Virus record (IMG/VR): IMGVR_UViG_3300027917_000005
Span: 1-50,048 of that record
Strand: one strand, 5' to 3'
Length of the DNA: 50,048 bases
Source: a virus
Shown here: positions 5,667 to 49,100 of the stretch, in pieces
Numbering within the stretch: position 1 is the stretch's first letter
How the letters are laid out: the number at the start of each line of letters is the position of its first letter
The notes under the pieces: generated by a model
Database searches by the model: none
What the model saw: the letters and a program-made list of their open reading frames with translations, nothing else
What the model was told of the DNA's origin: nothing
Program-made: the position numbers and the translations under genes

Positions 5667-8600
5667 ATACTCTTGGAACTGATGGGACTTATAATGCCCA
5701 TGTAAGTGCTGATCTGAGCACTCCGGCTAAGCATGCCAGCTCCCCGGACCTCACTGATTGGGCTAAGGGTAATAAGATTTGGATTGGTATCAAGCTTAGT
5801 TGTAATAACTGTACCAAGAATCCAATTGCTGAAACTCTATATCTCGAAGTCAGGAAGGACGGTGGAAGCTGGCTTAGCTTAGCTCTATCTGATTTAGCTC
5901 CTCCAGGCAGTGGACAGATGCAGTACACTGATATGACTCCGCCTAATTCTGCTTGGTGGACAGCAAATGATACTGGTCTGTGTGGCACTAACAAAGCTGA
6001 TGGAGGAGCAACAGATACTGGAGATTCTGTTGTAATTGATGTTACGACTGATGAGAAGGCAGAGGCTTGGTGGGCAATAGACTTTGCAGGTGCTGCTGAT
6101 TCCAGTCTGTATGAATTTGGCTTCTATGATGCAAGTGGAAACCATGGTTCTGCTGGAAGCCCCACTGTCCTTGATGTCTCTGTTACAATGGCAGAGGGCG
6201 CGGTTGACAGAAACATTAACATTGATGATGAAGAAGCTACCATTGTAGTGACTGATGTCCCATCTGTTGCTCTCCCCGATGCCTTAGAAATTTCTGTCCA
6301 AGAGCCTCTAATTACAGTTGCTGATGAAGAGACTGTTAGAGTTCATAGTGATATAAGTGTCTTTGAGACTGCTATAACTGTTCAGGAAGATGTGACAGTA
6401 TCCCTTCCAGATCCTCTGGAAATTACTGTTCAGGAAGCATTAATTTCTGTCTTAGAGGATGCAACTGTAGAACTCCCTGATTCCTTAGAAGCATCTGTCT
6501 TTGATTCCGCAGGTGTCACTTCAGTATTAGATGATATCTTGGTCTATCAAGAAAATCTAGAAATCAACATCTCAGAACCCCTCATTACAACTACCGATGT
6601 TCCAACAGCAGAGCTTCCAGATGATCTGGTCATTGCTATTGCAGAGGGACTCATTACAGTCACTGACGTTCCTACTGCTCGATTACCAGATGATCTTGAG
6701 GTCTCTATTGCTGAGGCAGCTATTACGGTTGCTGATATTGTAGATGATATTGTTGTAGAAGCTGCAGAAGAAGAAGCTCTTAGCATTGATGTCTACGATG
6801 AAGTGACAGTAACTGACACAGTAGATCATATTGGTCTGTCTGGTAAGTGGTGGACTACCTTCTCTGAATATTCGCTTGGAGTTCCTGGGGATTGGACTGA
6901 ACGCTGGAACTTGGATGGTGCTAACAGTGAGATTGTTGCCAGTACTGATAAGATGAGTGATAAGGAATTGCTTGTTGATTTGGTTGGTGGTGATGATACA
7001 GGCATATCCTGGGATGCTGTTGGAAATCCTAGAAATGTGGAACTCCTTATACTATTCAGAATGATAAATAACAATAGTCACTGCACAACTATAAGAGGCA
7101 GTGGAGATGAGGGTTCTGAGAATTGTTACTATGTTTATGGTTCTGCTTCAATGAACCAGCTGTATCTAAGGAAGAAGGTTGCTGGTGTTGATGGTGGTTT
7201 AGATTCTACTGCAAAGAGCCAGTCTGTAGGAGGTGTGTATTGGCTGCGATTCCAAGCTCTGGGTAACCAGATTAAGGCTAGAATGTGGGGTTGGAGTGCT
7301 GCTGAACCTGATACATGGGATTTGGAATCTACAAACTCTGAAGTAACAGAGGGCTGGGTTGGTGTACATGAGCGGGGAACAGGTGATGCTGGAGCACTAT
7401 TCTTCAGTGTTGGTACTTATGGTGAATCTCCAATTGAGCATCCTCTGATCTTTGAATCAGATACTACCACAGTTACTGATGTTGTTGATAATATAGAAGT
7501 TGTGGAAGTTGCAGAAGATTATAGTATCAACGTCTATGATGAAGTAACTGTTACTGATGTAGTCTACTGTCTAGATGTAGAGTATCATTATTGGACAGAC
7601 TTTAGTGAGTACTCTCTTGGTGTGAAGCCTTCCGGCTGGACTATAGATGTAGGAGGCACATATGATGTAACTGCAGGAGTAAAAACTTTAGGTGGTAAGT
7701 ATGTTGATAATGATGGAACACTTACTCCTGGTATCTTATATCCAAATAATGCTCCTGAAGTGGTAGATGCTGAGATATTAGTCTTAGTAAATGTTGATAA
7801 TGCTGGCTCAGTTTTTCAAGGCCTGGTAGCCATACGGTGGCAGGTAGTAGGTAACAAAGGCTATGGGTTGATCAGGGTTATAACTGATTCAGTAGCCATG
7901 TACTATCTTGATGGTAGTGCTGCACCTGACCTTATAAATCAGGGCAACCAGAACATGAACACTACAGCTCAGTATTGGGTCAGATTTCGTCTGGAAGGAT
8001 CAACACTGAAGAGCAAGGTTTGGCTGAAAGGCAGTACTGAACCTGGAAGCTGGGGTACTACTGATACTGACAGTACAATTACTACTAAGGGCCGCTGTGG
8101 ACTATGTGGCTATTCGGAACGATCAGAGATTGATTATTTTTCAATAGCTACTGCTGGAGGAACTGCAAAATTTCCTCCATTTATGAGTGTCTATGATGAA
8201 ACAACTGTAACAGAAGATGTTACGACAGAGGTTCTTGATGCAGGTCTTAGCATAGATGTCTTTGACAGTGTAACAGTAACTGATGTTGTAGATGACATTG
8301 GTGCATCTGAATTCTTTTATACCTCTTTTGAAGAGTATAGCCTTGGGACTCCACCAGATTGGACTGAGAGGTGGCACGTTGATATGGCAACTCCATCTAT
8401 ACAGTCTGGTGGACTTCTGATGGGTCAAATGCTTAGACTTACTCATGATGCTTCACAGAGGTATGAACTCAGCTGGGATGCTCCAGGTACTCCAGTAGAT
8501 GCTGAAGTGCTTTATCTTTGCGAGCCACAAGGTGATGACAGTATGCGTCTCCTTTTGCGTGGTTCTGGTGATGATACTAGCGAAACTGGGTATTACGTTT

Positions 8601-10774
8601 ATGGACTCACTTCTACTGATAGAGTATATCTTGGATATTATAACAATGCTGCTGGGACTGAGATTACCAATTTTGTTCATACTCTTAGTGCTGGACAGGC
8701 TTACTGGATAAGATTTAGGGTAGAAGGAGATCAGTTAAAAGTAAAGATCTGGGATAAGGGTGATCCTGAACCTGGGTCTTGGAACCTTGAAGAGACTGAT
8801 GGAACACTTACTTCTGGAGGCTGGGTTGCTGCTGGAAAGTGGGGAGCATCATCTGAAATCTCTTTCTTTAGTGTTGCTACTCGTGGTGCAACAGCTAGAA
8901 TGTTCCCTCTTCCAGATGTATATGAGTCAGTTACTGTAACAGATGTAGTTGATAATATAGTTATAGCTGACGCTCCCTTTGATAATATCAGCGTCTTTGA
9001 TTTAACAACTGTAACTGAGGATGTTACAGTCAGTTTACCAGACCCGCTTACTGTCAGTGTATTCGATCTAACAACTGTAGAGGATGCGCCAGTAATTGAG
9101 GTAGGTGCTTATGTTGTTAACGTCTATGACGAGGTCACTGTTGCGGATGAGGAAACGGTTTCTATATCTGCCCCTGCAGATTTTGAGATAAGTGTCTTTG
9201 ACACAGTTACAGTTGAGGAGAATGTCTCCTGTTGTAAGTATGATATATACTGGACAGACTTCACTGAGTACACAATTGGTCAGCAGCCTAGTGATTGGAC
9301 TGAACAATGGGATGTTGATAAGGCGACTTCATTAGTCACAGCAGGAGGGGAATTTGGAGGGAAGTTTGTCAGGATAGATCACACAGAGACATTTCCATCA
9401 GGTAGTAGGTATGCTCTTAGCTGGGATGACCCAGGTACTCCTACAGATGGAGAGATACTAGCCTTAGTAAGATCATCTACCCCTCATAATCATTGCTCTC
9501 TTGTGCTAAGAGGTAGTGGAGGGCTCAATACTGAGAATGGATATCAGGCAGACCTTAATTTCTGGGATGAAGAGATTAGAATCCTGAGGTGGCTGAATGG
9601 TGGTTATAGTGGGCTTATAGCTGCAACATCTAAGACCTTAGACCTAGACACTTGGTATTGGGTCAGGTTCCAAGTGAGAGGAACAGCTCTGAAGATGAAG
9701 GTATGGGAGTATCAAACAAGTGAACCAGAGTCCTGGGACCTTTCTACTTCAGACTTACAACTTGCAAGTGGTTGGGTTGGTATATTCTCTAGTTATGATG
9801 ATGCTCGAGATTTTGATTACTTTGCCTATGTCCCAGGAACTTGTGCTTCTGTTCCAGTTCCAATAGATATAGAGCTTTCTCCGTTAATCTATGAGACTGT
9901 TACTGTACTAGAAACAGTGACTGTTCGTCTTCCTGACTCTCTAGAGATTAGTGTAGAAGAGACTGCAGTTGCTGTTACTGATGTACCATCAGTTGGGTTT
10001 GGCAACTTCATAAGTGTCTTTGACACTGTGACAGTTGAGGATGCACCGACTGTTATTGTGCATCCAGCAGTAAGCGTGTTTGACACTGTTACTGTTACCG
10101 AGACAGTAACTGCATCATTACCAGACGATCTAGAAATATCTGTAATTGATGAGTCGACAATTCTTGAGTGGGTTCATGTTACAGTTGGTGTTCCTTCTTA
10201 CCTCCTAATTCAGAAGGATGAAAATGTAGTTGTACAGGAATATGTAGCTGTAGCGCTGTCTGACCTTGAATCATCTGTATACGATGAAGCTACAGTAACT
10301 GAACAAGTAGCTGCAGAGCTTCCAGATGCTCTAGTTGTATCAGTATTTGATCTAATAGTATTGACTGAAGATGTTGAGGTTGCCCCTGAGCTCAAGCTAA
10401 GTGTGTATGACTCAACCTCAGTTCTTGAGTCAGTCTCTATAGAGATCCCTTTTGTGACAGTCAATGTGTTTGACTCTGTTACTGTTACAGAAGATGCCAC
10501 TGTAGCTGTTCTAGTTCCAGAGTTTCTTGAGGTAGTTGTCTTTGATGTTGTGACAATTACTGAGAGCACAGCTGGGATTGTCAGTGCTGTAATTCTAAGC
10601 ACATTTGATACTATAACAGTAACTGAGAGTGTTTCCCTGTACTGGCTAATTGCTGCTGGTATTGCAAGGCTTGACTTCTCAGAAAGAAGTCCATCTATTG
10701 ACTGGATGGCAAGGGAGCCACATATTCACTACAATGAGCGAGCACCAAGAGTAGACTATGAGGCAAGAATATAG
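5648..10774 (+). CDS. Giant modular fibre/adhesin-like virion protein (1708 residues)
   Basis: An N-terminal beta domain (about 1-185) is followed by runs of a short repeat of type SVYDEVTVTD or SVFDTVTVTE, present dozens of times. Four copies of a roughly 190-residue concanavalin/LamG-like domain begin about residues 401, 648, 890 and 1200. Each opens with an FSEYSLG-DWTE-type motif and contains RGSGD and YWVRF strands. The C-terminus has RLDFSERSP and PRVDYEARI repeats. The design suggests a long extracellular fibre or stalk with carbohydrate-binding modules, probably receptor recognition. The ribosome site is weak. The short repeat also occurs at 20402-21241. Confidence 0.75.
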   Translation: MGTYYLNTLGTDGTYNAHVSADLSTPAKHASSPDLTDWAKGNKIWIGIKLSCNNCTKNPIAETLYLEVRKDGGSWLSLALSDLAPPGSGQMQYTDMTPPNSAWWTANDTGLCGTNKADGGATDTGDSVVIDVTTDEKAEAWWAIDFAGAADSSLYEFGFYDASGNHGSAGSPTVLDVSVTMAEGAVDRNINIDDEEATIVVTDVPSVALPDALEISVQEPLITVADEETVRVHSDISVFETAITVQEDVTVSLPDPLEITVQEALISVLEDATVELPDSLEASVFDSAGVTSVLDDILVYQENLEINISEPLITTTDVPTAELPDDLVIAIAEGLITVTDVPTARLPDDLEVSIAEAAITVADIVDDIVVEAAEEEALSIDVYDEVTVTDTVDHIGLSGKWWTTFSEYSLGVPGDWTERWNLDGANSEIVASTDKMSDKELLVDLVGGDDTGISWDAVGNPRNVELLILFRMINNNSHCTTIRGSGDEGSENCYYVYGSASMNQLYLRKKVAGVDGGLDSTAKSQSVGGVYWLRFQALGNQIKARMWGWSAAEPDTWDLESTNSEVTEGWVGVHERGTGDAGALFFSVGTYGESPIEHPLIFESDTTTVTDVVDNIEVVEVAEDYSINVYDEVTVTDVVYCLDVEYHYWTDFSEYSLGVKPSGWTIDVGGTYDVTAGVKTLGGKYVDNDGTLTPGILYPNNAPEVVDAEILVLVNVDNAGSVFQGLVAIRWQVVGNKGYGLIRVITDSVAMYYLDGSAAPDLINQGNQNMNTTAQYWVRFRLEGSTLKSKVWLKGSTEPGSWGTTDTDSTITTKGRCGLCGYSERSEIDYFSIATAGGTAKFPPFMSVYDETTVTEDVTTEVLDAGLSIDVFDSVTVTDVVDDIGASEFFYTSFEEYSLGTPPDWTERWHVDMATPSIQSGGLLMGQMLRLTHDASQRYELSWDAPGTPVDAEVLYLCEPQGDDSMRLLLRGSGDDTSETGYYVYGLTSTDRVYLGYYNNAAGTEITNFVHTLSAGQAYWIRFRVEGDQLKVKIWDKGDPEPGSWNLEETDGTLTSGGWVAAGKWGASSEISFFSVATRGATARMFPLPDVYESVTVTDVVDNIVIADAPFDNISVFDLTTVTEDVTVSLPDPLTVSVFDLTTVEDAPVIEVGAYVVNVYDEVTVADEETVSISAPADFEISVFDTVTVEENVSCCKYDIYWTDFTEYTIGQQPSDWTEQWDVDKATSLVTAGGEFGGKFVRIDHTETFPSGSRYALSWDDPGTPTDGEILALVRSSTPHNHCSLVLRGSGGLNTENGYQADLNFWDEEIRILRWLNGGYSGLIAATSKTLDLDTWYWVRFQVRGTALKMKVWEYQTSEPESWDLSTSDLQLASGWVGIFSSYDDARDFDYFAYVPGTCASVPVPIDIELSPLIYETVTVLETVTVRLPDSLEISVEETAVAVTDVPSVGFGNFISVFDTVTVEDAPTVIVHPAVSVFDTVTVTETVTASLPDDLEISVIDESTILEWVHVTVGVPSYLLIQKDENVVVQEYVAVALSDLESSVYDEATVTEQVAAELPDALVVSVFDLIVLTEDVEVAPELKLSVYDSTSVLESVSIEIPFVTVNVFDSVTVTEDATVAVLVPEFLEVVVFDVVTITESTAGIVSAVILSTFDTITVTESVSLYWLIAAGIARLDFSERSPSIDWMAREPHIHYNERAPRVDYEARI

Positions 10775-12672: not shown

Positions 12673-12700
12673 GACAAAACGTCAATAATTGACGTTTCTT
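12672..12700 (-). promoter_or_regulatory. Dispersed 29-bp operator, site 3 (minus orientation)
   Basis: The core at 12677-12697 (AAACGTCAAT-A-ATTGACGTTT) is a perfect 10-1-10 palindrome. It fills the gap between the terL stop and the portal ribosome site. Confidence 0.85.
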
Positions 12701-17548: not shown

Positions 17549-17577
17549 AAGAAACGTCAATAATTGACATTTTGACT
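17549..17577 (+). promoter_or_regulatory. Dispersed 29-bp operator, site 4 (plus orientation)
   Basis: AAGAAACGTCAAT-A-ATTGACATTTTGACT begins two bases after the upstream stop and ends 14 bases before the next ATG. It contains all three TGAC half-sites. Confidence 0.83.
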
Positions 17578-25695: not shown

Positions 25696-25723
25696 GTGAA
25701 AATGTCAATTATTGACGTTTCTT
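25695..25723 (-). promoter_or_regulatory. Dispersed 29-bp operator, site 5 (minus orientation)
   Basis: The core at 25700-25720 (AAATGTCAAT-T-ATTGACGTTT) fills the gap between the upstream stop and the ribosome site of the giant protein at 25742. Confidence 0.83.
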
Positions 25724-31037: not shown

Positions 31038-31066
31038 CAGAAACGTCAATTATTGACATTTTAACT
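31038..31066 (+). promoter_or_regulatory. Dispersed 29-bp operator, site 6 (plus orientation)
   Basis: AGAAACGTCAAT-T-ATTGACATTTTAACT starts one base after the giant-gene stop and ends 13 bases before the next ATG. The third half-site reads TAACT rather than TGACT. Confidence 0.82.
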
Positions 31067-36343: not shown

Positions 36344-36657
36344 ACTCCCTCCTTATTCCAGAGGCATTTATCTCTTACAACTGGGTCTATCTTTCCGTCA
36401 TATAACCTGCACCATAAGGGCCGATCTTCGTATGACTTGCACCCAAGAGGAGATAGCTCCGGACAGGGATATGGGACCACAACTATAGCTACGCTGTTGT
36501 CCAGTCCTCCTTTCTTAATAGAACAGCCTCTTATTGTATAGAAGTGGATCATTTGATCGTATTCTGGGTTATAGATAGATGGAATCCCAATAACTTTACA
36601 GCACTCCATACATCTAAGGCATAACTCCTGTTTCCGAGAAATGTCAATTTTTGACAT
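36340..36657 (-). CDS. YkgJ-type cysteine-cluster protein (copy B)
   Basis: This 105-residue protein has CLRCMECC (about 13-20), then CPELSPLGCKSYEDRPLWC, the YkgJ/UPF0153 pattern, like the gene at 5367-5666. The start codon (36657) lies inside operator site 7, so MSKIDIS is encoded by the palindrome; GGAG lies five bases upstream. Its stop overlaps the polymerase ATG, suggesting coupled translation and possibly a linked function. Metal or cluster binding is inferred. Confidence 0.72.
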   Translation of the reverse strand: MSKIDISRKQELCLRCMECCKVIGIPSIYNPEYDQMIHFYTIRGCSIKKGGLDNSVAIVVVPYPCPELSPLGCKSYEDRPLWCRLYDGKIDPVVRDKCLWNKEGV

Positions 36658-36669: not shown

Positions 36670-36984
36670 CTAATGTTTCTGCTCTCCCTCAGGGGCTGCA
36701 CCACTTTGGAAGGCTGGAAGTCCTGAGACATCAAATTCATTTATCTTCTCACAGGTAGAACAGTAGAATCCTAGTGGAACCTGAACTAATGTAGGCCCAC
36801 CAGACACTGCTTGGAGAGGGCTAGCATAATAGACATTAGAGGCCTGGAGGAATAAGGCATTTCCACATTTACAGAGTAAGGGCTTTAGCTGATCTACAGT
36901 TACCCCTGGATTAACACCAGGTGCAATCTGAGGCTTGCCACCAAACAGACTGTGTACCGATCTACCCTTCTTGGGTTTTTGCAT
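36670..36984 (-). CDS. Small zinc-ribbon-like protein
   Basis: This 104-residue protein starts after AAGGAGG and overlaps the methylase gene by 23 bases. Two cysteine pairs, CKCG (about 38-41) and CSTC (about 75-78), are spaced as in a zinc ribbon, with FYCSTCEKINEFD typical. Position in the replication arm suggests a nucleic-acid role, which is inferred. Confidence 0.6.
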   Translation of the reverse strand: MQKPKKGRSVHSLFGGKPQIAPGVNPGVTVDQLKPLLCKCGNALFLQASNVYYASPLQAVSGGPTLVQVPLGFYCSTCEKINEFDVSGLPAFQSGAAPEGEQKH

Positions 36985-38278
36985 AGTAATCCTCCTTCAG
37001 TCCAGCCATGCGTTTGCAGGCATTAGAATATGCTTCCATTGAGTTGTCAACTCCAATGCAGAAAAGTCTTTGTCTTACTCCAGCCTCAATAGAAGAGGCA
37101 CTTCCCATAAAGGGATCGTAGAGGGACTGCCCAGGTAGTGCTGATCTTTCTAGGAGATTTGTTAGGAGTGGAACTGGCTTTTCAAAGGGATGAAGCTTTT
37201 CACTTGGTAGGACAGGAGAGCATTCTATCCAGTCAGGCATACCTTCCCTAACCAAGCGGCTTTCGTCTTTTCTGATATACATAATCATCTCATAGCAGGA
37301 TGCAGGCCAGGCAGTTGGAACATTACACTGACCTACCTCTCGCTTAATCCAAATGATGGGCTTAATGTGAACTCGCCAGCCTTCCTGCATGAACATCTGA
37401 CGCAGAGTCCAAAAGTGCTCGGGACCAACAAAGACGTACCCGTGACAGGTAGGGGTGGTAATTCTGAATCCTTCCCGAGCGAGAACAGAGTAATAGAAAA
37501 GGGCAGGCTCCCGACTATCTTCAATTTTATACCCACTGGTTGTAAGTTGTCCACCAGTCTTACCTCCTATTCCCTGCGTTAGAAGGTCTGCCTCTATACC
37601 ATAGATGGGATCAGTAAGAAGAATATCAATAGAGCCTTTATTCACAGATACCATGTGTTCCACAGCATCTCCATGAATAAGCTCAAAGGTACTCTTCCTA
37701 TCCTTAATAGCCTCCTCGTGCTTCTTCACTCCATCCATAGCAGCAGTTAATTTCTGCAGTGCCTGTCCAGCCTTCTTTATCTCAGACTTCTTTTTTGCTT
37801 GCTTCAATTGAGGGAAGGCACGAACCAAGGATGCCATCTCCATAGCATTATAGACAGAGCCTCGGGTCTTTCCAAGGAGTTCAGCAGTCTGCTCTATTGA
37901 CCATCCTTTTGTGCTACCTGATATAGAGGCTCCGTGGCGGGATTGCTTAAGGCGATGGAGTTCATCTATGGCAAGGGCTTCTTCGGCAGGAGTATAATCT
38001 TTTCTGTGGAGGTTGGCTTCAAGTTCTAGCTCCCGCATTTCATAGTCATCAACAACATCTTCATAGACTGCCTTGACTTTGATTCCAGCCAATAAGCAGG
38101 CAGCAAGCCTACGTCCTCCATCTACAAGTTCATTATCTCTTGTTATAACAATAGGCAGAATCTGCCTAGTTCTTACGAATGAGTCCGCAAGAGCTTGGAC
38201 ATCCCCGACCTCTTGTCTGAAGCGTTCCAGGCCTTCACGGACTTTTATTTCAGTTGGAGCAAGTTCTACAACCTGCAT
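36962..38278 (-). CDS. ParB-like domain fused to a DNA methyltransferase
   Basis: This 438-residue protein starts after AAGGAG. Residues 1-90 form a ParB/Srx-like N-terminal domain (VDGGRRLAACLLAG, 52-65). An HTH follows (WSIEQTAELLGKTRGSVYNA, 126-145). The C-terminal methylase has motif IV TDPIYGI (222-228), a P-to-I variant of DPPY, then HPFEKP (363-368) and DPFMGSAS (388-395), i.e. the beta-class order. It probably methylates adenine or cytosine amino groups in DNA, guided by the ParB/HTH part. Such fusions occur in phages and may protect phage DNA. Confidence 0.88.
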   Translation of the reverse strand: MQVVELAPTEIKVREGLERFRQEVGDVQALADSFVRTRQILPIVITRDNELVDGGRRLAACLLAGIKVKAVYEDVVDDYEMRELELEANLHRKDYTPAEEALAIDELHRLKQSRHGASISGSTKGWSIEQTAELLGKTRGSVYNAMEMASLVRAFPQLKQAKKKSEIKKAGQALQKLTAAMDGVKKHEEAIKDRKSTFELIHGDAVEHMVSVNKGSIDILLTDPIYGIEADLLTQGIGGKTGGQLTTSGYKIEDSREPALFYYSVLAREGFRITTPTCHGYVFVGPEHFWTLRQMFMQEGWRVHIKPIIWIKREVGQCNVPTAWPASCYEMIMYIRKDESRLVREGMPDWIECSPVLPSEKLHPFEKPVPLLTNLLERSALPGQSLYDPFMGSASSIEAGVRQRLFCIGVDNSMEAYSNACKRMAGLKEDYYAKTQEG

Positions 38279-38598: not shown

Positions 38599-39117
38599 TT
38601 AGAAGGGAATGTCATCTTCTGACCCATCAGACTCAGAAGCCCTACGAGCCATACTGGAGACACTATTCCTTGTGCGACCCTGATACTCCTCCATGGATAA
38701 GCTAACAACTACATCAATGCCTACCCAATCACCTGACTCAATAAAGGCCATAATCTGAGTAGGACTATCCATGTTGATCTGCATACTATCTGCAAACTGC
38801 TTCATCATGTTGATCTTGGCTTGCCGCTTAGTGCTTCTGCCTGAGGCAGTCATCTTGTTCTCATCACCAATCCTTGGAAGCCAGTTGCGATAGGTAAATG
38901 CTTGGCCGTCAATAGGAGTCTCTCCATCAGACATTACCCCACCATTGTCTGCTAGGACAACCCTCCAGGCTATTGCCTGGTTGGCCATCTCAAATGTGAC
39001 ACCAGCCACACTACCAAGATAGTTACCTTGCGGGGCTAACGGGTCTGGCTTGTACTCATCTTCCAGACTAAAGTCTGTCTCGATGTGCGCTCCTTCTTGG
39101 GGTTCTAGTTCTGTCAT
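38599..39117 (-). CDS. Putative single-stranded-DNA-binding protein (DUF669-like)
   Basis: This 172-residue protein starts after AAGGAG. The C-terminus is acidic and ends DGSEDDIPF, the tip typical of SSB proteins that recruits partners. The core (YLGSVAGVTF, WRVVLADNGG, MKQFADSMQI) is consistent with an OB-fold phage SSB. It lies directly after the Sak4-like ATPase and overlaps it by four bases, forming a recombination set. Identification rests on the tail and context. Confidence 0.68.
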   Translation of the reverse strand: MTELEPQEGAHIETDFSLEDEYKPDPLAPQGNYLGSVAGVTFEMANQAIAWRVVLADNGGVMSDGETPIDGQAFTYRNWLPRIGDENKMTASGRSTKRQAKINMMKQFADSMQINMDSPTQIMAFIESGDWVGIDVVVSLSMEEYQGRTRNSVSSMARRASESDGSEDDIPF

Positions 39118-40954: not shown

Positions 40955-40983
40955 AGTCAAAATGTCATTTTTTGACGTTTCTT
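40955..40983 (-). promoter_or_regulatory. Dispersed 29-bp operator, site 8 (minus orientation)
   Basis: The core at 40960-40980 (AAATGTCAT-TTT-TTGACGTTT) differs at one inner base. It directly follows the T-run of the structured RNA at 40984-41064 and precedes the nuclease gene. Confidence 0.78.
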
Positions 40984-41064
40984 AAAAAAGGGCCCTGAGA
41001 GGAAAGATCAGTTGGACCTTTGCCTAGTATTCGGGGCTACTAAGCTTAACCGCTCCCAGGGCCC
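40984..41064 (-). ncRNA. 75-base three-way-junction RNA ending in a T6 run
   Basis: On the minus strand GGGCCCTGGGAG (41064-41053) pairs over 12 positions (one wobble) with CTCTCAGGGCCC (41001-40990), and TTTTTT follows. Inside, CTTAGTA-GCCCCGAA-TACTAGG and AAAGGTC-CAACT-GATCTTT form two seven-pair arms. The fold is compact and tRNA-sized, but no T-loop consensus or canonical anticodon arm is seen. It lies in a leftward gene gap. It could be a stable small RNA with its own terminator or an elaborate terminator. Folding is by eye. Confidence 0.65.
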
Positions 41065-41075
41065 CCGAGAGGAGG

Positions 41076-44423: not shown

Positions 44424-44850
44424 TTTTAGCCTCCTCCCCGAAGTATGCAGCTATCTCCTCCTCAGATATTCCATCCTCTCGCATCAATTGTTTCTGTCTT
44501 TCCTTGTCACTGAGGAACTCAACAGTGATACGAGTGTCATCTGTGGATTCTGTTACTTCCTCCCTTACAGTGAGATCAACCAGCTTCTTAACCTTACCAT
44601 CCTTATCAAAGATGACAGGAGGAGGAACAGGGGCTAGCTTCTCAAGGACTAAGATATGCTTACCTCCCTGAGAACTTCGGGTGACTCCAATATCAGAGCC
44701 GTCTAATGATTGTTTCTGCCATTGAACCCTCTCTCGATAGAGGGATGCCCTGAGAGATTCCATTTGCTTGAAGCTAGTGCAAGTGATTAACATCTTCTCC
44801 CCTGCCTCTAACTCCAAGGCATTATCAAAGATGATCTTCGCTCTTGACAT
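44395..44850 (-). CDS. Hypothetical protein, related to the 43640 product
   Basis: This 151-residue protein starts after AGAAAGGAGG. FDNALELEAGEKMLITCTSF and ESLRASLYRERVQWQ parallel the order of segments in the 43640 product, and both end in a DG-[IL]-EEI-type helix. Function unknown. Confidence 0.62.
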   Translation of the reverse strand: MSRAKIIFDNALELEAGEKMLITCTSFKQMESLRASLYRERVQWQKQSLDGSDIGVTRSSQGGKHILVLEKLAPVPPPVIFDKDGKVKKLVDLTVREEVTESTDDTRITVEFLSDKERQKQLMREDGISEEEIAAYFGEEAKNDNLSQEQT

Positions 44851-45214: not shown

Positions 45215-45512
45215 AATCCCCTCCTTGTCTTGGAAACTCGGAGTCATAAATATCCCATGACTCCTTATCCTTTGCCTTATAATGTCCTATTACTAGATGA
45301 AACTCAGGACCTCCTCCAAAACAGATGAAAAAAATATCTCCGAAGAACCCAGGCCCATCGGAGATATAGTTTCTAATAACTCTCACTCGAGGATTATCTC
45401 TTAGCTCAGCATGAAGCTCTACTTTTTCAGATAAATCTAAGCCCCAATTCTCAGCTAATAAAGATGCAATCTTCTCGAGCTCATCCTTCTTTGGGATATA
45501 TAACTTACTCAT
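45135..45512 (-). CDS. Hypothetical protein (125 residues)
   Basis: GGAAGGAG precedes the ATG. Residues 1-90 look globular (ISDGPGFFGDIFFICFGGGP), but the last 30 residues, over the next gene, are polar and uneven (NNREPRSESCTETQHPKEEE), so the natural end may be a by-product of overlap. The leader holds the hairpin element at 45533-45592. Not recognised. Confidence 0.52.
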   Translation of the reverse strand: MSKLYIPKKDELEKIASLLAENWGLDLSEKVELHAELRDNPRVRVIRNYISDGPGFFGDIFFICFGGGPEFHLVIGHYKAKDKESWDIYDSEFPRQGGDYGQNNREPRSESCTETQHPKEEEVPS

Positions 45513-45532
45513 TCCAGGCTCCTTCCCTTTCT

Positions 45533-45592
45533 ACCTCATCATGGTGCTTGCATCGGCTTCCGGCTTTCCTAAGCCGCCAGAGCCAATGAGGT
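45533..45592 (-). promoter_or_regulatory. 5'-leader RNA fold before the 45512 gene
   Basis: Minus strand: ACCTCAT (45592-45586) pairs with ATGAGGT (45539-45533). Inside, TGGCT/AGCCG and CGGCTT-AGGA-AAGCCG stack as a long hairpin. No T-run follows; the ribosome site comes a few bases later. A translational control element is possible. Folding is by eye. Confidence 0.45.
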
Positions 45593-45705
45593 CAAGTGCA
45601 GGTGTGCTTACCTTTCTTCAGCACAGTTTTATATGGCTCAGCTAGTCCCTCATACCAGAGAGAATAGGAGCCATCCGGCATCAGGGTAATCAAGTATTTG
45701 CTCAT
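45592..45705 (-). CDS. 37-residue hypothetical protein
   Basis: The ATG at 45705 has AGAGG eight bases upstream and gives MSKYLITLMPDGSYSLWYEG, ending KKGKHTCT. It overlaps the zinc-finger-like gene by 56 bases in another frame. The start resembles small globular proteins, but size keeps confidence low. Confidence 0.4.
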   Translation of the reverse strand: MSKYLITLMPDGSYSLWYEGLAEPYKTVLKKGKHTCT

Positions 45706-45847
45706 AGCGAATACCTCTTGTTAAGAGCAGCTGCCTGTAATATGTAGCTAGATGGAAATCACAGACGCAATACCCCTCTTGTACAGGATCAGCCATCCAA
45801 CTAAAGGAAACTACTCGAAGACAATTTGGGCAGGTTACTGAGATCAT
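45650..45847 (-). CDS. Small zinc-finger-like protein (65 residues)
   Basis: The ATG overlaps the upstream stop in ATGA. CPNC (about 6-9) and CVCDFH (about 27-32) could form a small zinc site. The rest is helical (YYRQLLLTRGIRYEQILDYP). Not assigned. Confidence 0.58.
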   Translation of the reverse strand: MISVTCPNCLRVVSFSWMADPVQEGYCVCDFHLATYYRQLLLTRGIRYEQILDYPDAGWLLFSLV

Positions 45848-46035
45848 TTATACTCCTTGTGGGTATCATAATCTCTGTGGTGGGTTTCATAATCCTTGAA
45901 TGCAGAGTCAATGTTTTCAAGCCCGTTCTCCTCCAGAAAATCATCTAGTATCTGAGCAGCCTGATCTTCTGACCCCGCCAGGACACTAACAGAGCCATGC
46001 TCTGTGTAAGTATATCCTATTCTCCAGAGTTTCAT
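45844..46035 (-). CDS. Small acidic hypothetical protein (63 residues)
   Basis: It starts after AAAGGAGG. MKLWRIGYTYTEHGSVSVLA followed by GSEDQAAQILDDFLEENGLE suggests a beta-hairpin plus helix. Operator site 9 lies 24 bases upstream of its start. Not recognised. Confidence 0.57.
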   Translation of the reverse strand: MKLWRIGYTYTEHGSVSVLAGSEDQAAQILDDFLEENGLENIDSAFKDYETHHRDYDTHKEYK

Positions 46036-46058
46036 AATTCCTCCTTTAGCATAGACCC

Positions 46059-46087
46059 AGTCAAAACGTCAATTTTTGACGTTTCTG
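46059..46087 (-). promoter_or_regulatory. Dispersed 29-bp operator, site 9 (minus orientation)
   Basis: The core at 46064-46084 (AAACGTCAA-TTT-TTGACGTTT) has fully matching arms. The third half-site AGTCAAAA is intact. It lies between the structured element at 46092-46182 and the gene at 46035. Confidence 0.84.
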
Positions 46088-46091
46088 AGTA

Positions 46092-46182
46092 GCGGGCAGG
46101 TGGTGGGCTAGCGCCAGAGGTTTACCATCCCTGCTTGGTTCATAGGCTGGGCGCCATCACCTAGGCATCCCTGCCTGCCCGC
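46092..46182 (-). ncRNA. 91-base structured element with internal tandem repeat
   Basis: Minus strand: GCGGGCAGG and CCTGCCCGC close the element. Inside are two imperfect copies of GCAGGGATG-(9-11)-TGGCGCYnAGCC, about 40 bases apart. No T-run follows. Like the elements at 38518 and 40984 it fills a gap in the leftward arm next to an operator. A structured RNA of unknown role. Folding is by eye. Confidence 0.5.
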
Positions 46183-46190
46183 GTTGAAGG

Positions 46191-46376
46191 TTAGCGGTTA
46201 TCTCTCCTTGCACGCCTCGCCAGTTTATTCCTCCGTCTAGCTTTCGCTAGGACTCTTGTCATGTACGGAGTTGGTGCGTGCGGGCCTGCCGCATACATCA
46301 GGAGAAGCTGTTCCTGATGCTTGTTTGGGGCAGGTGCTGCCATTGCCTTTCTTAATGCCTTCTTAAGAGTACCCAT
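46191..46376 (-). CDS. Small highly basic protein (61 residues)
   Basis: It starts after TAGGAGG and overlaps the upstream stop by one base. The C-terminus is very Arg-rich (VLAKARRRNKLARRARRDNR), suggesting nucleic-acid binding. Not recognised. Confidence 0.58.
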   Translation of the reverse strand: MGTLKKALRKAMAAPAPNKHQEQLLLMYAAGPHAPTPYMTRVLAKARRRNKLARRARRDNR

Positions 46377-46609: not shown

Positions 46610-47050
46610 TTAGCACCTTACCTTTCTGGTGACCTCACAAATACTTCCCTCCACGGGGAATCCAGCCATCACCAGAATGTTCTTGACTATATCAACACTC
46701 TGGTAGTGCTTCTCCAGCTCGTGATTGTAGGTGCGAATTATTACCTTGCATCCGGAGGAAGTTGAACAGAGGTCGTACTTGTTGGAGCCTATCCTGATGG
46801 TTGATGAAGCAATGTAGGTTCCGTCAGATTTGATGTAGTTGAATCTGCCGGGGATGGATCGCCTGATGTTATCAAGCATTGTAATTGTCTCGCTCCATGG
46901 GTCAGTCTCATAATGAATGAGCTTCCCATCGAAGAAGACTTCAATTTGGGTCTGGTGATAGGTTACAGGAAACTTGCTAGAGATCTCCTCTCTAGGGCAG
47001 TTGATGTTGATTTCTGTCTCTAACTTCTCGAACTTGCCAAAGCCTGACAT
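46610..47050 (-). CDS. Hypothetical protein (146 residues)
   Basis: It starts after GAGGAGG. Mixed alpha/beta (IEVFFDGKLIHYETDPWSET; GCKVIIRTYNHELEKHYQSV). No motif recognised. Part of the early leftward cluster. Confidence 0.58.
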   Translation of the reverse strand: MSGFGKFEKLETEININCPREEISSKFPVTYHQTQIEVFFDGKLIHYETDPWSETITMLDNIRRSIPGRFNYIKSDGTYIASSTIRIGSNKYDLCSTSSGCKVIIRTYNHELEKHYQSVDIVKNILVMAGFPVEGSICEVTRKVRC

Positions 47051-48550: not shown

Positions 48551-48833
48551 TAACACTCGCCTGTAACATTTTTTGTGTAGCTGTATGTGTAACAGAAACC
48601 GTAACCGTAACGGTAACATTCCTAAACCCTCTCTTTTCCCGACCCTAAAAAATCATCCCCTTTTTTTAAGCTGGCTCTTTTCCTTTTTCTTATTATTTTT
48701 TTTTCTTTTTTTTTTTTAAGAAGAGAAGAAAGAGAAAGCTGAGAAAGAAATAGCTGAACAGGGGGTGATTTTTGGACGGATAAAAACAGGGGGACAGGGA
48801 AAGTTACCGTTACCGTTACCGCTGCTGTTACAC
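48551..48833. repeat. Inverted clusters of GTAAC/GTTAC pentamers
   Basis: The left cluster (48551-48617) has six GTAAC copies, ending in CCGTAACCGTAACGGTAAC. The right cluster (48802-48833) has GTTACCGTTACCGTTACC, then GTTACAC. The arms are reverse complements of each other. They could be protein-binding iterons. Confidence 0.62.
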
Positions 48834-48850
48834 TTACACCTTGGATTTTA

Positions 48851-49100
48851 CGCCCTTTAGAATAAGAAGATTTGGGGATTAGGCTGGGGTATTGTTGCCC
48901 CTCCCACAAAGAAGAAATGTCAACAAGGAAGCTGCCCGTTTGGGGACAGCTTGGCGTGAATTTTCGCCTTTAGAATATGGAGAGTTTATATCTAGCCTGG
49001 AAGGGGAAAGAAGATGGGATTAGGGGAAGCTGGATTATCGAGATTTCTGCCCGATTTGGGCGCCTTTAGCATATGAGAAGTTGTATATATAGCTTAAAAA
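48851..49100 (+). repeat. Three degenerate direct repeats (CGCCTTTAGAATA...TAGCCTGG)
   Basis: Copies centre at 48854-48888, 48967-49000 and 49063-49096, spaced 113 and 96 bases. Each has CGCC(C)TTTAG[AC]ATA, then A/G-rich sequence, then (in two copies a TATAT run and) TAG-C-type ends. Flanking CCCGTTTGGG/CCCGATTTGGG and AGAAGAT..GGGATTAGG also recur. They are noncoding. Confidence 0.5.
48912..48923 (+). promoter_or_regulatory. Isolated operator half-site
   Basis: AAGAAATGTCAA matches the left half of the dispersed operator, but the TTGAC half is missing. It lies in the origin-like region and may be a relic or a weak site. Confidence 0.4.

Follow-up and report, generated by a model that had tools for sequence, protein, structure and literature searches.

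The junction and the element

What is the role of a GC-rich stretch of 91 bases, closed by a perfect stem and containing an internal repeat, that lies between two small genes of a phage? The stretch, seen directly in the sequence, occupies positions 46092..46182 on the minus strand of the window, by which I mean the whole DNA analysed, a virus record 50048 bases long whose ends carry a direct repeat of 99 bp. Because of that terminal repeat, the window is probably a complete phage genome. Its left side carries on the plus strand the genes for terminase, portal and major head protein, and its right side carries on the minus strand those for a DNA polymerase, a Sak4-like protein, a ligase and a fusion of a ParB-like N-terminal part with a DNA methyltransferase (36962-38278). 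The 91-base element is located in the right arm.

Read along the minus strand, the junction begins with the gene of a basic protein of 61 aa (46376-46191), followed by 8 bases, the element (46182 to 46092), 5 bases, AGAAAC with an operator-like palindrome (46082-46066), and a gene of 63 aa that starts at 46035 (45844..46035, with AGGAGG ahead of its ATG). Neither protein matched Pfam at E 0.01, and a search of phages with the 61-aa protein gave no match. The gap between the two genes, 155 bp, is mostly filled by the element. The first-pass annotation had called the element noncoding, and indeed no open reading frame of at least 20 aa (with ATG, GTG or TTG start) runs through it. According to a hand-made gene list, the genes upstream of the element abut (gaps of -1, 0, 11, 0 and 20), and since gaps of 79, 284 and 122 bp occur further downstream, the gap of 155 bp is not singular.

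The arms of the closing stem, GCGGGCAGG (5' arm, 46174..46182) and CCTGCCCGC (3' arm, 46092..46100) on the minus strand, form a perfect inverted repeat of 9 bp, 8 of them G/C, that spans 91 bases and encloses a loop of 73 nt. Within the element are two imperfect copies of the sequence GCAGGGATG-N9-TGGCGCYnAGCC, again on the minus strand and 40 nt apart from start to start. Copy 1, GCAGGGATG-N9-TGGCGCCCAGCC (46145..46174), has one base in common with the 5' arm and one base more than copy 2, GCAGGGATG-N9-TGGCGCTAGCC (46106..46134). The N9 spacer differs between the copies (1 of 9 positions equal), and the longest exact part of the repeat is a 9-mer. The stem, the tandem repeat and the adjoining palindrome, which lies 9 bases past the end of the element, are all as first annotated. 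Following the stem, the minus strand continues with TACTCAGA, which has 2 T in its first 8 bases, and the plus strand with GTTGAAGG, so a T-run is found on neither strand. On the plus strand, along which no gene is read here, G-U pairs lengthen the stem; on the minus strand they do not. GC content is 62% over 46085-46174, as against 38-51% in 90-base windows from 45500 to 46129, and it stays raised (53-57%) through 46175-46354, inside the 61-aa gene.

Several other features of the genome were recorded. A promoter-like box, TTGACATCTG, with a spaced -10-like hexamer, is present at 459 (+), 48533 (-) and 41754 (-), as well as near position 2013 of the related locus L138 (fetched loci are denoted by such labels); each of these is a probable early promoter. 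At 44844 (+) the box recurs a fourth time, across the start of a gene and apparently by accident. All 10 occurrences of TATNCTAAAG are on the minus strand; the copies at 49073, 48977, 48864, 46053 and 44880 look intergenic, and the other five are apparently inside genes. Finally, a 59-nt inverted repeat (48579-48637/48783-48841, 78% complementary), in which GTTACCGTTACCG units surround A/T-rich DNA, makes the region 48579-48841 a candidate replication origin.

Likelihood of the features by chance

The stem and the repeat were chosen by eye. The window has 38 perfect stems of at least 9 bp with a span of up to 131 (operator palindromes counted too), as compared to 15-30 in each of 8 Markov resamplings. 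The closing stem is the sole case among the 38 with at least 8 G/C, and no such stem appeared in any of the 8 resamplings. When the element's own composition was shuffled, a perfect stem of at least 9 appeared in 8 of 500 shuffles and an exact direct repeat of at least 9 in 28 of 2000, so that each feature is matched by about 1.5% of same-composition shuffles. In 38 of 2000 shuffles the best ungapped self-match of 29 nt is at least as good as that of the element, 18/29 at offset 40. As raw counts, without shuffle control, an equal 9+6 match in register is found at 2 places in the whole window, and 30-base pairings with at least 20 identities within 120 bases number 181, the best with 24.

Folding energy gives z = -1.78 for the plus strand (a fold equalled by 49 of 1000 dinucleotide shuffles) and z = -1.38 for the minus strand (93 of 1000), and 9% and 14%, respectively, of 1666 window/strand samples of the genome are as low. 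The two strands fold about equally well, and the folding energy of the element is ordinary for its composition. (The lowest z of the 1666 samples, -5.75, belongs to 46861-46951 on the minus strand, within the gene at 46610-47050.) The features of the element are real, each only moderately unlikely by chance.

Operator-like palindromes

The palindrome next to the element, ACGTCAAAAATTGACGT (46066..46082, minus strand), matches a genome-wide motif, AGAAAYGTCAAWWWTTGACRTTTTNACT, which may be the binding site of a protein. The putative operator is found at 403-419, 2550-2566, 12679-12695, 17554-17570, 25702-25718, 31043-31059, 36641-36657, 40962-40978 and 46066-46082, amounting to 15 strand matches at 9 places in the window (up to 3 mismatches), as against 0.08 expected. 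The nine sites lie mostly at gene junctions, in early and late regions alike, with five oriented with the genes and four against them. Four of them (12679, 17554, 25702, 31043) are 6 bp past a stop codon, leaving no room for a hairpin.

With the operator pattern, 92 viral stretches were reached, 80 of the 92 among the matches listed, and an alignment of a nuclease gave 47 loci. The core GTCA-N5-TGAC is kept in several relatives, and the outer arms differ. Among 106 stricter operator sites, one in L113 is abutted by a tRNA-Pro gene (8715-8792), and one in L134 comes just after a tRNA-like sequence (about 6912-6988) whose D and anticodon arms are unusual and which ARAGORN does not call. RNA 3' ends thus occur at the pre-operator position in two relatives.

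Search for relatives of the element

The sole other copy of the element was found in one contig (overlapping fetches L009/L011/L045) that is 99.96% identical over 8133 bases, hence from the same virus and uninformative for comparison. The repeat-unit pattern gave 8 stretches in viral_contigs, one of them the same virus; the other 7 have no second copy or stem (judged by eye). Since each of the 7 lies within a long open frame (199-858 codons between stops), I set them aside as coding coincidences. In genome_contigs the strict element pattern gave no match, and the nuclease alignment gave 47 pattern stretches, none from a relative. The element's DNA matched ten records of relatives at operators only and the record of L046 nowhere. 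BLAST found no homologues, whether with a 501-base stretch against phages (5 records, E 6), with the element against phages (9 records, E 0.8 or worse) or with a 293-base stretch against plasmids (5 records, E 0.9). The best blastn match in a set of 153 fetched loci (1.49 Mb, including overlapping fetches and excluding copies of the window's own virus) was a coincidence in L043/L044 (E 0.026), and nhmmer gave no match in that set. The first-pass annotation had proposed a covariance model search, but a model built from the two identical copies recovered from the window and 92 fetched loci (1.09 Mb) only the element itself. No covariation can be seen, because the searches gave no homologue.

Absence from close relatives had been named as evidence against the element, and the comparison could be made on one moderately close relative, L066, part of a contig whose ligase is 49% identical. 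Its operator at 6679-6697 is about as far upstream of the ligase as the one in the window; a 64-aa gene has its stop codon within this operator, and the element is missing. Homology between the flanking small genes is not evident, so the site corresponds by position only. Of the relatives found, L138 is the closest, with 75-82% identity in 8 of 10 matched right-arm proteins (57% and 27% in the other two), and its sequence ends short of the 46-kb junction.

Rfam at gathering scores gave no match in the whole window, and at 45990-46300, with E up to 10, the best match was a microRNA family, which scored 20 bits where its gathering score is 63.5. Candidates of other kinds, attC, REP/BIME and a hepatitis-delta-like ribozyme, were considered and dropped: there were no matching ends (by eye), no further copies and no Rfam match. 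The structured gap is a modest one and has so far turned up in a single uncultured phage.

An analogous stem at another operator

A comparable arrangement exists elsewhere in the genome, at the junction between a 150-aa gene and that of a PDDEXK nuclease. There a stem of 12 pairs, one of them G-U, closes a structured loop of 51 nt (40990..41064, minus strand) and is followed by T6 (40984-40989) and then by the putative operator at 40962..40978. In the scan of 1666 samples, the stretch 40981-41071 (minus strand) has a folding z of -4.8. Corresponding long-loop stems, also before an operator and with a T-rich tail, are found in L138 (about 2740-2815) and L140 (about 9770-9845). The stems of the window, L138 and L140 have 12, 13 and 14 pairs, spans of 75, 73 and 73 nt, 6, 4 and 4 T among the 8 bases that come next, and 7, 9 and 21 nt between stem end and operator arm; in L139 and L147 the spans are 39 and 22 nt, with 5 T each. 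In several relatives pairing at this junction is kept while the sequence changes completely, and this supports function as an RNA hairpin, most simply a terminator.

Ten loci at this junction were picked and read by eye. Five (the window, L138, L140, L147 and L139, the last with a degenerate operator) have a stem before the operator, and GTCA-N5-TGAC is missing from the roughly 320 bases read in each of the others (L142, L155, L146, L154, L148). In an earlier listing of 20 loci at the junction, 7 have overlapping genes and no gap. The same listing includes L070, whose operator is inside a stem, in the loop closed by 11 bp between GTATGGGCCAG and CTGGCCCATAC (898-943) at the junction before the nuclease gene.

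Stems preceding operator-like sites were also scored. A score of at least 17, a threshold chosen once the list had been seen, was reached at 5 of 242 site-orientations, as against 0.0 expected (5 composition shuffles each). The 242 come from 51 hand-listed sources, with both strands of each palindrome included and fetches of one contig counted separately unless their last 50 upstream bases were identical. The five are L140, window 40976, L138, window 38611 and the 91-base element, three of them representing one homologous junction. I reject window 38611 as an operator, a chance match inside the gene at 38599-39117.

Interpretation of the element

The reading that I favor, tentatively and at somewhat less than an even chance, is that the element is a transcript-end RNA hairpin at an operator-marked junction, lacking the T-run of an intrinsic terminator. 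The argument comes from the analogous stem, which with its T6 stands before another operator and is kept in relatives. The scored stems before operator-like sites, the wide gap that follows a run of abutting genes, and the RNA 3' ends before operators in L113 and L134 also speak for it. The layout of stop codon, long-loop stem and operator is common to both junctions, with a T-rich tail added at the other junction of the genome and in some relatives. The first-pass annotation held that the element is not a terminator. This stands insofar as there is no canonical one, but a transcript-end role leads nonetheless, because the stem most like it in this genome, with its T6, resembles a terminator. 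I infer that the element is transcribed, folds in vivo, and ends or stabilizes transcripts. It would be a 3'-untranslated hairpin in the sense of the surrounding genes, closing the RNA made from the block of genes before it, 48464 down to 46191. The GC stem would form as RNA polymerase leaves the element, causing a pause or weak termination, or it may serve instead as a boundary to RNase III or an exonuclease. Termination would need a helper, since there is no T-run; this might be Rho, Nus factors or a protein that binds the operator immediately following. Against the transcript-end reading are the missing T-run, the ordinary folding energy, the lack of a homologue in the searches made, the four putative operators that leave no room for a hairpin, the other wide gaps downstream, the small number of independent junctions among the high-scoring stems, and the loci of the other junction with overlapping genes or no operator. 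It also leaves the internal repeat unexplained. If it is true, these phages mark junctions of gene blocks by a hairpin and then an operator, and transcript ending would be tied to a genome-wide binding protein; the element taken alone is a minor feature.

Nearly as likely, if doubtful in itself, is a neutral GC-rich insertion, a fragment acquired between stop codon and operator, in which duplication or chance produced the dyad and the repeat. An element that is a singleton in the searches made, absent at the position-matched operator of L066, a GC island of ordinary folding z, and no better endowed with repeats than some other places in the window is what such an insertion might look like. But so few shuffles of its own composition reach either the stem or the repeat, its position just before an operator parallels the stem elements of the other junction, and phage intergenic DNA is short as a rule. 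The remaining readings are weaker. That the two copies and the dyad are a site in the DNA, bound by a phage or host protein for replication initiation, segregation or as a composite operator, seems improbable to me. Two copies of a composite motif, 40 bp apart and beside an operator, would suit it, as would the nearly equal folding of the two strands, but TGGCGCYNAGCC is about as frequent in the genome as expected (14 matches, allowing up to 2 mismatches, vs 13.4) and there is a better candidate for an origin at 48.6-48.8 kb. The other half of the repeat is in mild excess, with 23 matches vs 13.6 expected, a number reached by 2 of 100 shuffles.

The repeat could also be read as RNA, with the element acting as an mRNA leader or small RNA to which the host regulator CsrA/RsmA binds, but I consider this quite unlikely. 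Both copies hold CAGGGATG, close to the CsrA consensus, the longest exact part of the repeat is the 9-mer, and copy 1 can show AGGGAU as a hexaloop closed by AGGC/GCCU. This is the sole C-G-closed ANGGAN hexaloop with at least 4 pairs on the minus strand, the plus strand having two more. CsrA-binding small RNAs, however, have several stable hairpins with GGA in the loop, and the element has two GGA and one candidate hairpin, which competes with the closing stem and attains pair probabilities of only 0.025-0.043; copy 2, by eye, forms none. Moreover, CA[AG]GGATG is found 9 times in the genome, a search of the phage for a CsrA gene found none, and the motif was matched after the fact. The fuller proposal, that a phage RNA with two copies of the GGA motif captures a translation regulator of the CsrA/RsmA type from the host and is freed from an early transcript at the closing stem, deserves slightly less credence again. 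Last, the tRNA-Pro of L113 and the tRNA-like sequence of L134, both directly before operators, bring to mind a degenerate or unusual tRNA-like gene. This reading is already largely refuted by the absence (by eye) of a T-arm motif and CCA, and I give it almost no weight: no cloverleaf is evident, Rfam gave no tRNA match, and ARAGORN called no tRNA or tmRNA at normal settings and, at thresholds of 85 and below, only an intron-type tRNA of 256 nt on the plus strand, starting at the element.

Comparison with known systems

Compared with CsrA-binding RNAs of the CsrB/RsmZ type, the element is alike in its GGA within a possible hexaloop and differs in having only two GGA, one weak hairpin and no Rfam match. 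With the stem at the 150-aa/PDDEXK junction (40990-41064 and its counterparts in L138 and L140) it shares a long-loop closing stem before an operator, with a span of 91 as against 73-75. The stems of that junction have T-rich tails and change in sequence with pairing kept, and the element has neither T-run nor homologue.

The putative operator beside the element resembles the stoperators of L5-like mycobacteriophages, at which the phage repressor halts elongation, in that many copies like a binding site lie in short intergenic spaces, so far as the available text of PMC9283540 describes them. Stoperators are there said to be oriented according to transcription, whereas the putative operators here are palindromic and stand in both orientations relative to the genes. 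The same portions of that source describe no hairpin as part of a stoperator. A protein bound at the putative operator is nonetheless one candidate for the helper in transcript ending.

Intrinsic (Rho-independent) terminators include units of several hairpins, according to the available text of PMC8355165. They are like the element in having a GC-rich stem shortly past a stop codon in the sense direction, here 9 bp beginning 8 bases after the TAA of the 61-aa gene. The element differs in its loop of 73 nt and its lack of a T-run directly after the stem, and its role in ending transcripts is putative. Because that T-run is missing I do not file it as an intrinsic terminator, and place it instead among intercistronic RNA hairpins, a known and wider kind.
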